Source of the DNA: a virus
Virus record (IMG/VR): IMGVR_UViG_3300031251_000087
Span: 1-28,374 of that record
Reading direction: 5' to 3' (one strand)
Length of the DNA stretch: 28,374 nt
A program made the position numbers and the translations under genes. Below are positions 9,899-25,330 of this stretch, piece by piece. Every line of letters starts with the position of its first letter. Position 1 is the stretch's first letter. A model generated the notes under the pieces. That model worked only from the letters and a program-made list of their open reading frames with translations. It did not search any database and had not been told where the DNA came from.

Positions 9899-10090
9899 TC
9901 AATTGTCATTGTCTGTACCGCGCTGATTGATGGTCATGTTTAAATCATCGTCTGACCATACGCATATTTCAGTGCCGTTTGCTAGCAGGATTACAAGGTC
10001 ATCATTCTCGATGCCTACGCCTTCGATAGTCTGGTTTACGATATTCTCTAGATAGTCGGATAGTTGTGGGCGTAGCTTTTGTACGGTCAT
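9899..10090 (-). CDS. Small hypothetical protein, 63 aa
   Basis: A 63-residue acidic protein starting MTVQKLRPQLSDYLENIVNQ and ending RGTDNDN. The ATG at 10090 is chosen because it overlaps the TGA of the phosphoesterase remnant as ATGA, the arrangement expected before the HNH gene arrived. A longer reading from 10243 runs antisense through the HNH gene and is rejected. The present upstream sequence has no strong ribosome site, so the insertion may have weakened or uncoupled its translation. No family recognised. Confidence 0.65.
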   Translation of the reverse strand: MTVQKLRPQLSDYLENIVNQTIEGVGIENDDLVILLANGTEICVWSDDDLNMTINQRGTDNDN

Positions 10091-10131
10091 TTTAGCATAT
10101 CCGAGTTGATTGTTAGGCGGGAAACCTCTCC
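10087..10131 (-). pseudogene. Remnant of the original phosphoesterase 3' end
   Basis: Read leftward, these 15 codons encode GEVSRLTINSDMLK and a stop, identical in protein to the last 14 residues before the final Q of the phosphoesterase ending at 10756. At DNA level 12 of the 14 codons differ, all synonymously. One residue upstream (F versus Y, 10132-10134) is also similar; beyond that the match stops. The TGA overlaps the next gene's ATG. This is best read as the ancestral 3' end left behind when the HNH gene and a substitute tail were inserted. Confidence 0.9.
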
Positions 10132-10141
10132 AAAATTTTTG

Positions 10142-10150
10142 TGGTATAAT
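10142..10150 (+). promoter_or_regulatory. Extended -10 promoter candidate for the HNH gene
   Basis: TGGTATAAT combines a perfect TATAAT (10145-10150) with an upstream TGn extension, which can work without a good -35. It ends 5 nt before the HNH ATG, so transcripts would be leaderless or nearly so, or would start inside the first codon and use the ATG at 10189. Confidence 0.55.
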
Positions 10151-10155
10151 TTGGG

Positions 10156-10776
10156 ATGCATAAAAATCCTTATAAATTAGAAGCAAAAATGCTTGGGCTA
10201 CATATATTTTATGATAATAGGCCATGCAAATATGGGCATACATCCGGTAGATATACTAGGAATTCCGGTTGTGTTCGGTGTGCGGATGATAATTCAACGA
10301 TGCGTGATCCAGTATATAGACTTGCTTATCAAGAGAGGAACAAATCTCGTATAGCGCTTTACCGACAAGAATACAACATAAAAAATATCGGCAAAATCCG
10401 CGCTAAACAAGCTAAATATATATCTGAAAATAAGGCGGAAAAAATAGCCTATGACAAGATATATTCCGCTAATAACGCAGCCAAAAAAAGAGCAGCCACT
10501 AAGCAATGGGCGATTGATAACCCAGAAAAGGCTAGGGCTAATGCAAGACTTTCTCAATCTAATAGGAGAGCCAGTAAACTTAGAGCCACTCCCGCATGGG
10601 CAAATAAATCTCTCATAAAAGAGATTTATTTTAATTGCCCGGATGGTTATGAAGTTGACCATGCAATACCTTTGCAAGGGAAAAGTGTATGTGGATTGCA
10701 TGTTGAATTTAATTTGCAGTATTTGCCTAAATTGGAAAATAGGAGGAAATCCGCATCATTGCTTGAGCATATCTGA
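10156..10776 (+). CDS. HNH homing-type endonuclease
   Basis: A 206-residue endonuclease read against its leftward neighbours. Residues 23-45 hold a zinc-binding finger (CKYGHTSGRYTRNSGCVRC). A long lysine/alanine-rich helical region follows (about 60-140). The C-terminal HNH motif is EVDHAIPLQGKSVCGLHVEF (170-189) followed by NLQYLPKLENRRKSA, with DH and the final N/H positions as expected for the beta-beta-alpha-metal site. Free-standing HNH enzymes of this type nick or cut phage DNA and spread by homing. The last 21 nt overlap the phosphoesterase gene's tail antisense. It could start at 10156 (after TATAAT) or at the ATG at 10189, behind AGAAGCAAAA. Confidence 0.9.
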   Translation: MHKNPYKLEAKMLGLHIFYDNRPCKYGHTSGRYTRNSGCVRCADDNSTMRDPVYRLAYQERNKSRIALYRQEYNIKNIGKIRAKQAKYISENKAEKIAYDKIYSANNAAKKRAATKQWAIDNPEKARANARLSQSNRRASKLRATPAWANKSLIKEIYFNCPDGYEVDHAIPLQGKSVCGLHVEFNLQYLPKLENRRKSASLLEHI

Positions 10777-11922
10777 ATTTATGGTAAGCCTACTTACTTC
10801 CCCGTATTCACGACTGTACGTAATAACTTTTGCATCACGTCCTGACAGCCATCCGCCACGAGCTGCATACGCATCGTTAGGAGCTAATGTCCGATGCTGT
10901 TCGACTATCATCATAGGATTTTCTTTCACATCAAGATGGTGCTTATGCCCCATGTGTGCGTAGGCGTATTTAGTGCGCCCGTATATCTCTCGGAACTGGG
11001 CAGCGAATACTTCGCTGACATTCGTGGGATTGCGTTTATGACCGTGATGGAAAAATAGCGCGGTATTGCCGAACTCATAGGCTAGGTAAGGTGAAGGGCT
11101 GCGGTCTACAGTTAGGCGTGGTTCGTTCTCATAAAGCACAGAAAACCATTCACGCAACCATATTTGACTTACAGGATCGTGGTTTGCATCAGCCATGATA
11201 ACATGCACGTTTTCGTGTTTATGCAACAACATGTCTATAACCTGGCGCAATACTCTGATTGCCGACCGCACAAGCTTGGCAAAGCGTGTATCAGCATCAA
11301 GTAAGTGTTTCGATTCTGGTGTTAATGCTTCCATGCCATCGAAATGCAGGAAGTCAGATAGCTGCGCGAATAGTCCTATCTTTGCGTCCGGTGACTGTGC
11401 GATTGCCTGTCTGAACCACTTAATAATCAGTTCTTCAGCTAATTTTAGATCCCAATCTTCGCCAGCCTCCTCGTGCCAAGCGAGCATACCCATGTGATAG
11501 TCGGTGATGACGTAGCAATTTAAGAGATTGTCGTTATGATGTTTAACGCTATGCGTTATAGGCTGTAACCTTGGCAATTCCTCAGCCATACCCTCGAAAG
11601 CCTCGCGCATGATGTTCTGTTGCGCTGCTAGGTCTATACTTGATTTAACCCACTGACCGGATGGCTTGCCTTCGTTGTTGTAGTAAGTTGATACGCCCTT
11701 GACGATATAGCCATCAGGTACGGGGCGAGTCATGGAGTGCGCCGGAGAGAATCCATGCAGGGCGGCTTTGCGTTCTAACGCATGGAGTGACCGTTGTATT
11801 GAGGTGGGGTGTACATCAAGTGCCGCGCCTGCTTTTCTGGTGCTTCCTGCGGCATTTACAGCATCGACGTACTTCTCTTGAGTTGGTGTTGCCCATTGCT
11901 TTAACGCCGGGTCAATTTGCAT
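10756..11922 (-). CDS. Calcineurin-like metallophosphoesterase with N-terminal HTH
   Basis: A 388-residue protein. Residues 20-60 form a helix-turn-helix-like segment (TRKAGAALDVHPTSIQRSLH). The phosphoesterase motifs follow in order: D141-x-H143 (TDYHMG), D190 in LSDFLHFDG, N247-H248-D249 (ANHDP), H293-G-H295 and G325-H326-K-H328 (MGHKHH), which together make the two-metal site. Phage members of this family are common; their substrate is unproven. The final 14 codons are a synonymously recoded version of the remnant at 10087-10131, so the present 3' end was acquired with the HNH gene. It sits 2 nt after the exported-protein gene and has only a weak ribosome site. Confidence 0.85.
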   Translation of the reverse strand: MQIDPALKQWATPTQEKYVDAVNAAGSTRKAGAALDVHPTSIQRSLHALERKAALHGFSPAHSMTRPVPDGYIVKGVSTYYNNEGKPSGQWVKSSIDLAAQQNIMREAFEGMAEELPRLQPITHSVKHHNDNLLNCYVITDYHMGMLAWHEEAGEDWDLKLAEELIIKWFRQAIAQSPDAKIGLFAQLSDFLHFDGMEALTPESKHLLDADTRFAKLVRSAIRVLRQVIDMLLHKHENVHVIMADANHDPVSQIWLREWFSVLYENEPRLTVDRSPSPYLAYEFGNTALFFHHGHKRNPTNVSEVFAAQFREIYGRTKYAYAHMGHKHHLDVKENPMMIVEQHRTLAPNDAYAARGGWLSGRDAKVITYSREYGEVSRLTINSDMLKQ

Positions 11923-24115: not shown

Positions 24116-25330
24116 TTAGACTGAGTAGTATTTGGTTGCAAGTTCTGGATAGGTCGCAGCCCATCCATACAAGACGTCCAAACGGGTTATGAAGTTGTCG
24201 TACATGCCATCGTAGAACGTAGTAGCCTTGACGGTGTAACCGTTATGGCTCATCTGTGCTACATCAACAACGCCCTTTCCACCAGGAGGTGCGTACATCG
24301 GAACTACTGCCAATGTAAATGCATCCCGGTGATAAGCAACGTTGCAGTTGTATGCAGTCGAGGCAGCACCCAGAATCACGAACGGGGTCGTATTCGTTGG
24401 CGAAGCAGTTACGTTTTGGAAAGCACCAGAAGTCACCAAAGCTGGTGAGATAGGCAATGAAGTAGCGCCCGAGGCCACGTCAGCAGTGATGACAAAGTTC
24501 ATCAACACGCCAGTTGAGCTACGATTCTGTGGGTTAACAGCAAACACACCAGGAAGCGTGATTGTGGTTCCCTTGGTAATCGTACCGCCGCCAGTAGCTG
24601 CTACCGTAATGGTAGAACCAGTCTGGTTTGCACCAGAGATATTGGAAGCAGTACCAGCACCTAGCGTCTGAACAGAGACGTTCTGATCTAGAGCGATATT
24701 TGCAAAACCGATTGCGTTCTGCATAATACCTTTTTGATACTGAGTACCTATAGTAGCTTGGTTATTAAACAAACCGCTTAAACCGTACACAGAAGCACCA
24801 TTCAAGCCGGGAGACAGAATGAAAGCACGTTGGTTGTCACGGGGAGCGCCCATTTCATCCAAACGGCGATTTGCATCTGTGTAGACTTGTACAGCACCTT
24901 GGGTAGTAGTAGGCAATGCACCAGTTGAGTTCAAAGTGTTGAACACGGCAGTACGTGCCAAGTCCAAACCTTGACGGTCAATTTCGTTGGCGATTGCAGC
25001 AACACCCGCGGTCAGCTTTTGTTCGAATTGCTGAACACTCAAGGTCTTTTGAAAGCCCGTGAAGTTCAGATCAACACCGCCTTGACTCAAGGTCAAAGGG
25101 ATTGTGGTTTCGACAGTTGATTGTGGTACAGCTACGTTACCAGCACGATAGGTATAACGTGGTGGTTTCTTGATGTTGATGGTCTGACCGGGAGAATATC
25201 CGCGAGCTTGATTGCCTGCGAATTCATCCTGAAAGTCAGTGTTAACGTTCTTGGAGAATCCAAGCATGTTTTCCAATATCGCCAGTGATTCTTTAGCGAT
25301 AAGGTTACATGTTACTAATGTATTTGACAT
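24116..25330 (-). CDS. Major capsid protein, P22 coat-like
   Basis: A 404-residue coat protein of the P22 gp5 type (HK97 fold with an inserted domain); P22's has 430. Supporting segments are the N-terminal SLAILENMLGFSKNVNTDFQ-like stretch, the GYSPGQTINIKKPPRYTYR strand (residues 44-62), DLNFTGFQKTLSVQQFE, IANEIDRQGLDLAR, and the end YDGMYDNFITRLDVLYGWAA. It will form the procapsid with the scaffold encoded just upstream. A nested inverted repeat surrounds its ribosome site. Confidence 0.9.
   Translation of the reverse strand: MSNTLVTCNLIAKESLAILENMLGFSKNVNTDFQDEFAGNQARGYSPGQTINIKKPPRYTYRAGNVAVPQSTVETTIPLTLSQGGVDLNFTGFQKTLSVQQFEQKLTAGVAAIANEIDRQGLDLARTAVFNTLNSTGALPTTTQGAVQVYTDANRRLDEMGAPRDNQRAFILSPGLNGASVYGLSGLFNNQATIGTQYQKGIMQNAIGFANIALDQNVSVQTLGAGTASNISGANQTGSTITVAATGGGTITKGTTITLPGVFAVNPQNRSSTGVLMNFVITADVASGATSLPISPALVTSGAFQNVTASPTNTTPFVILGAASTAYNCNVAYHRDAFTLAVVPMYAPPGGKGVVDVAQMSHNGYTVKATTFYDGMYDNFITRLDVLYGWAATYPELATKYYSV

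Follow-up and report, generated by a model that had tools for sequence, protein, structure and literature searches.

An apparently recurring route by which HNH endonuclease genes enter phage genes without disrupting them

The locus examined here poses the question of how an endonuclease gene came to lie between two endings of the same phage gene, and which of the two endings is the original one. It is part of a 28,374-nt stretch of DNA (hereafter the window; positions 1 to 28,374 of IMG/VR record IMGVR_UViG_3300031251_000087) whose source is a P22-like phage. Elsewhere in the window, the coat protein (24116-25330) shares 64% identity with its counterpart in Rhodoferax phage P26218, a hint that the host is a betaproteobacterium, and a 310-aa ORF (1524-2456) contains a run of near-identical ASG-repeat units.

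Two endings of one phosphoesterase gene

The invaded gene (10756..11922, minus strand) is an ORF encoding a 388-aa phosphoesterase or 'DNA repair exonuclease' (phrog_704, E = 1.5e-126). Its ending, GEVSRLTINSDMLKQ, is repeated in frame beyond an antisense HNH gene: the C terminus in use reads ...VITYSREYGEVSRLTINSDMLKQ before the stop codon, and a second ending at 10131-10087 on the minus strand encodes GEVSRLTINSDMLK and a stop. Over the 14 residues in which the two tails overlap, 12 of the 14 codons and 15 of the 42 nt differ, every change is synonymous, and only GAT and ATG are the same; our recount agreed with these figures of the initial annotation, and the coordinates and translations of the two endings around the HNH gene, with their 21-nt antisense overlap, were confirmed. 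The shared residues had been placed correctly at 10131-10087, but the remnant is longer than first described, beginning five codons upstream (TAC CAC AAA AAT TTT GGA...) at position 10146. The full remnant, YHKNFGEVSRLTINSDMLK plus stop (10087..10146, minus strand), and the working YSREYGEVSRLTINSDMLK are identical at 15 of 19 residues and 32 of 57 nt, and the pair has a BLOSUM62 score of 78 compared with a maximum of 38 in 2000 shuffles (1 kb downstream). The TGA of the remnant overlaps the ATG of the next gene as ATGA. This 63-aa gene (9899..10090, minus strand), which would directly follow the native phosphoesterase end, bears a distant likeness to the small genes directly after the phosphoesterase in L002, L007, L046 and L048 (18.5 bits against their profile). 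By analogy with a second locus, L335, described below, the functional incoming 3' end would start at a Tyr codon and comprise YSREYGEVSRLTINSDMLKQ and its stop (10756..10818, minus strand). The inserted element, HNH gene plus replacement tail, would then span about 672 nt (10147..10818), its putative left edge being set by the repeat in the window and by the exact 569-nt insertion that separates L335 from L355.

The HNH gene itself (10156..10776, plus strand) encodes 206 aa with a conserved DH..P...G.H...N catalytic pattern and matches phrog_26577 (E = 1e-14) and the endonuclease VII family phrog_1035 (E = 1e-7). D168, H169, H182 and N186 are invariant in an alignment of 38 HNH homologues, and the AlphaFold model (overall pLDDT 90) has a predicted strand-strand-helix core at residues 165-198. 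The best PDB fold matches of the model are HNH domains, at weak E values (E > 0.5), and the protein did not reach the Pfam HNH families. Its conserved D-H, H and N residues and its predicted fold are those of the beta-beta-alpha-metal core by which an HNH endonuclease is recognised. Members of the family end in ...EN-x-x-K-x-N-K and a few further residues; the window protein departs from this pattern at N200, where a near-invariant asparagine is lost just ahead of the 21-nt convergent overlap (10756..10776), and its last four residues (203-206) are modelled with pLDDT < 50. Because residues 201-206 and the stop codon lie antisense to the last codons of the phosphoesterase, the original final codons of the HNH gene seem to be gone, its reading frame now closing within the incoming tail. 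A near-perfect 30-nt palindrome, AAATAAATCTCTTTTATGAGAGATTTATTT, lies within the HNH ORF at 10602-10631, and a TATAAT (10145-10150) stands at the edge of the remnant shortly upstream of the HNH start codon. A promoter scan of the HNH strand gave no sigma-70-type site, and no Shine-Dalgarno sequence was evident near the start.

An empty and an occupied site in a second gene

The order of events could be read directly from a close relative of the window that lacks the HNH gene, but none was present in the collections searched. Scans with the 150-aa and 63-aa genes gave no contig in which a window-type phosphoesterase is fused to a 63-aa homologue, and no phosphoesterase is annotated in structural relatives such as Rhodoferax phage P26218. 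HNH-less relatives of the phosphoesterase do have a small gene directly after it, in L046 with the same ATGA overlap. The initial annotation had taken the ATGA as a sign that the remnant is in the ancestral place; the overlap is there, but alone it says little about position because an overlap of this kind with some other upstream gene is frequent among homologues of the 63-aa gene. No HNH-less genome with both tails was seen among the relatives examined, nor, among the 63-aa homologues scanned, one preceded by the 45-nt sequence in the absence of a phosphoesterase, either of which would have spoken against an insertion.

The before-and-after comparison expected for the window was found instead in another phosphoesterase gene (phrog_7339), which has no detectable similarity to that of the window in pairwise BLASTP. 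Its HNH-bearing locus, L335, comes from one metagenomic contig only, with L354 a second entry for that contig; 79 further close IMG/VR loci of this phosphoesterase were available. L355 is of the same phage type but has no HNH gene; over the gene's first 1031 nt it differs from L335 at one position, and 889 of 900 positions of the right flank are identical. In L355 the gene ends GTACAAGAGGGTGCAGATTATCTTAATTATCTAAGAAGCAAAAAATGA and overlaps the next gene, and the same sequence stands behind the HNH gene in L335. There, the gene end in use differs from that of L355 at 14 positions (within 37 nt, in the last 49 nt of the gene) and is followed by the HNH gene, which lies in sense and starts in the stop codon, and then by the unchanged native tail, which now encodes the C terminus of the HNH protein. 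L335 thus equals L355 plus a clean 569-nt insert, new tail and HNH gene together, at gene positions 1030/1031, with 0 native bases lost and with the divergent stretch starting exactly at the insertion point. Within GADYLNYLRSKK of the L335 tail, 6 of 12 codons differ. The other intact relatives have the gene end once, most of them with the same next gene directly after it. As judged from these aligned sequences, the comparison with L355 shows that in L335 the distal copy, the one adjoining the next gene, is native. In the sister phages L357 (4077-4640) and L358, an apparent MT-A70-type methyltransferase gene, identified by inspection, occupies the L335 junction with no tail duplication.

Since the window has the same anatomy, an HNH gene of the same family, a similar insertion distance from the stop codon (19 codons, compared with about 16 in L335) and a remnant abutting the next gene, a shared history is the best explanation of the window locus. 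Its order of events rests on position and on this analogy because no close HNH-less relative was found.

Recurrence around related HNH genes

The flanks of 175 distinct related HNH ORFs from IMG/VR, GTDB genomes and phage records were scanned for the same peptide on both sides, with the mismatched flanks of other HNH genes serving as control (maximum score 48). The arrangement clearly recurs at L335 (tail score 79) and L481, probably recurs at L496, and is present in decayed form at L155/L205. In the window, L335 and L481, two copies of a 3' end flank the endonuclease gene and the copy adjoining the gene body is the one in use. L481 is a holin-like gene in a prophage-like region of a Geobacter genome bin, in which a 29-residue tail is duplicated around the HNH gene (score 114); the copies are identical at 50 of 87 nt, and 18 of the 21 shared residues are differently coded. 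Towards the 3' end of this gene the GC content drops from 0.67 to 0.39, with 0.58 in the leftover tail, so that the tail in use lies in a longer AT-rich stretch, as expected for foreign DNA. Relatives of the holin from four genomes provided no empty site. The holin of L496, which matches Pfam GTA_holin_3TM, is 39% identical to that of L481, and its remnant is short (score 54). At L155/L205 a broken HNH gene is followed by a 42-residue remnant of the native end of the window's phosphoesterase family; the phosphoesterase beside the broken HNH gene (L155 reverse complement 1-1450 / L205) gives an identity of 36%. In a tree of 161 HNH proteins, built from a short alignment, the tail-bearing members are scattered, which suggests that, as far as such an alignment can tell, tail-bearing elements arose repeatedly.

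Three further candidates were rejected: the scores of L435 and L451 reflect GC-rich low complexity, and the repeats of L302 sit in apparent group I intron core sequence. At L302 (700-2930) a SU10-type capsid gene is apparently interrupted, with two HNH ORFs and these core-like repeats, which gave no Rfam match at the gathering threshold.

Insertions at the 3' end of the phosphoesterase gene involve several HNH types. Another HNH subfamily is found there in related phages (L043:6156-6731, L054, L158 and L267, with an empty site in L065); like the window gene it occupies the 3' end of the same phosphoesterase gene, but unlike it these genes lie on the sense strand at the stop codon, and therefore no tail duplication is needed. 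KEYGEIERHTCDIGM, which follows the L043-type HNH gene and was considered as a decayed tail, corresponds for the most part to intergenic sequence in L065, the relative with the empty site.

Origin of the tails and mode of entry

Relatives of the phrog_704 phosphoesterase were numerous (405 in IMG/VR and 2037 in phage records), the closest having 74% protein identity. GEVSRLTINSDM is near-invariant at their C terminus, with one copy in each relative examined, and the residues ahead of it vary among natural alleles (YHKNY, YHKEF, YSRDF, YDKRF). The working copy's YSREY resembles such alleles, and at the DNA level the remnant matches natural alleles at up to 46 of 57 nt, compared with the 32 of 57 between the two window tails. 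To judge by these sequences, the two tails of the window are separate alleles of the same gene end and the remnant is not a drifted copy, since its private residues YHKNF match the natural YHKNY and YHKEF. Codon usage and GC content did not distinguish the native from the foreign tail of the window, and the co-converted tract along its phosphoesterase could not be mapped because the relatives are too diverged, the best-matching one shifting from bin to bin.

These observations are most readily accounted for if an HNH gene and a diverged tail entered the phosphoesterase gene together, the tail restored the gene and the native tail was stranded, to which we assign a probability of roughly 80%. 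Of the alternatives, the one that survives best, though we consider it unlikely, is that the tail in use derives from the native one and was recoded by selection, synonymous changes removing the HNH site and stopping recombination between the repeats. It would account for the nearly exclusively synonymous differences between the tails and for L335, where the insertion point is precisely where divergence sets in and, of 30 natural tails compared, the closest to the new one is still 10 nt away, whereas each of the 30 has a neighbor within 7 nt. However, strong purifying selection acting on a conserved peptide leaves natural alleles differing in just this way. In a set of 41 distinct natural alleles that encode exactly the 14-residue peptide, pairs differ at 8 codons on average, 4-5% of pairs are at least 12 codons apart and 13% at least 15 nt apart, and for half of the set at least one other allele lies 12 or more codons away. 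By this benchmark the divergence of 12 of 14 codons is at the high end of the natural range and no special process is needed to explain it; selected recoding is therefore unproven and a diverged donor sufficient. Between the window tails there are also 4 residue differences resembling natural variants, and the longer AT-rich stretch around the L481 tail fits a foreign donor as well.

It is improbable that the order in the window was the reverse, with the remnant side as newcomer and the tail of the long gene as native. No close window relative fixes the order, and an ATGA is common before 63-aa homologues, yet the native copy in L335/L355 is the one adjoining the next gene, and relatives of the window have a small gene directly after the phosphoesterase. 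Slighter still is the chance of an ordinary duplication, in which a single genome first acquired a second copy of the 3' end and an HNH gene inserted between the two afterwards: the HNH gene does lie between two versions of one tail, as such a history would have it, but the private residues of the remnant occur in other natural alleles, no HNH-less genome with two copies was found, and L335/L355 show tail and HNH gene as one clean insert. An HNH-bearing group I intron or intein, with the remnant as downstream exon or extein, can practically be dismissed even though introns and inteins commonly house HNH genes, because the gene upstream is complete down to its stop codon, so that a spliced product would be redundant, the HNH gene is antisense, and no group I intron was detected at the Rfam threshold in the window, L335 or L481.

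Under joint entry of the HNH gene and a diverged tail, a free-standing homing-type endonuclease gene would have invaded the phosphoesterase about 19 codons before its stop. The enzyme would cut the native tail region, and repair of that cut would drive the insertion. The incoming DNA would consist of the HNH gene joined to a complete phosphoesterase 3' end from a diverged allele; because this end is complete, the interrupted gene would be restored at once, and the native tail would be left past the HNH gene, next to the following gene. A diverged tail may protect the element in two ways, against its own nuclease and against loss by repeat recombination: if the native tail is what the nuclease recognises, an identical restored tail would be recut, and recombination between identical repeats would remove the insert.

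The initial annotation had likened the locus to Allomyces atp6, and the comparison is apt. Fungal mitochondrial mORFs, which encode LAGLIDADG or GIY-YIG enzymes, are inserted near gene ends, with the foreign C-terminal part expressed and the native part left behind; the first C-terminal-replacing case was Allomyces macrogynus atp6, and four more, in atp6, atp9, cox2 and nad3, are known from Glomus sp. (PMC3630166). Those of arbuscular mycorrhizal fungi are even closer to the window, the two ends of Glomus atp6 having 63.5% DNA identity and 91% protein identity (PMC3630166). The likeness lies in an endonuclease ORF near the 3' end, a foreign end in use and a native end downstream. Unlike the mitochondrial mORFs, the phage cases involve HNH enzymes, tailed phages and prophages, and tails of about 16-29 codons, and the window HNH gene is antisense to the invaded gene and shares codons with the new tail. 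The window element behaves like an mORF yet is not classed as one, because its enzyme is a phage HNH and not a fungal mitochondrial LAGLIDADG or GIY-YIG enzyme. Like the free-standing phage HNH genes of T4 (the mob genes; PMC2988022) and Skunavirus (PMC12724721), as the portions of those sources consulted describe them, it has no intron and lies beside a conserved phage gene. According to the same portions, such genes are expected to spread by cutting HNH-less genomes and to be copied with flanking markers (PMC2988022; PMC12724721); unlike the window case, no replacement tail or stranded native tail is mentioned in them. In the open-access literature, outside which most subscription journals lie, no phage precedent for an HNH gene with a replacement tail was found, and the searched portions of a review and of surveys of phage homing nucleases do not mention the arrangement.

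With L335 and L355 supplying, in a second phage, a before-and-after pair of the same event, the arrangement looks like a route that HNH genes have taken repeatedly into phage genes without disrupting them. In the usual view, homing nuclease genes persist in coding genes by splicing, in introns and inteins, or lie between genes, and to our knowledge a nuclease gene that supplies a substitute gene end has so far been known only from fungal mitochondria. Whether the phage cases form a recurring class of HNH elements, with 'nuclease gene + replacement gene end' as the mobile unit, is in our view an even bet; in such a class the carried tail would repair the invaded gene and give both immunity to the nuclease and stability of the repeat, and the unit would have arisen several times in different genes. 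If so, a nuclease gene would be able to enter coding sequence without an intron or intein, and a phage nuclease gene with a substitute gene end would be a third solution beside splicing and an intergenic position. Insertion with a replacement tail would account for gene ends that lie stranded next to phage HNH genes, and with L355 and L335 as an exact empty/occupied pair the mechanism can be tested directly. Such elements would also move short stretches of conserved genes between phages.
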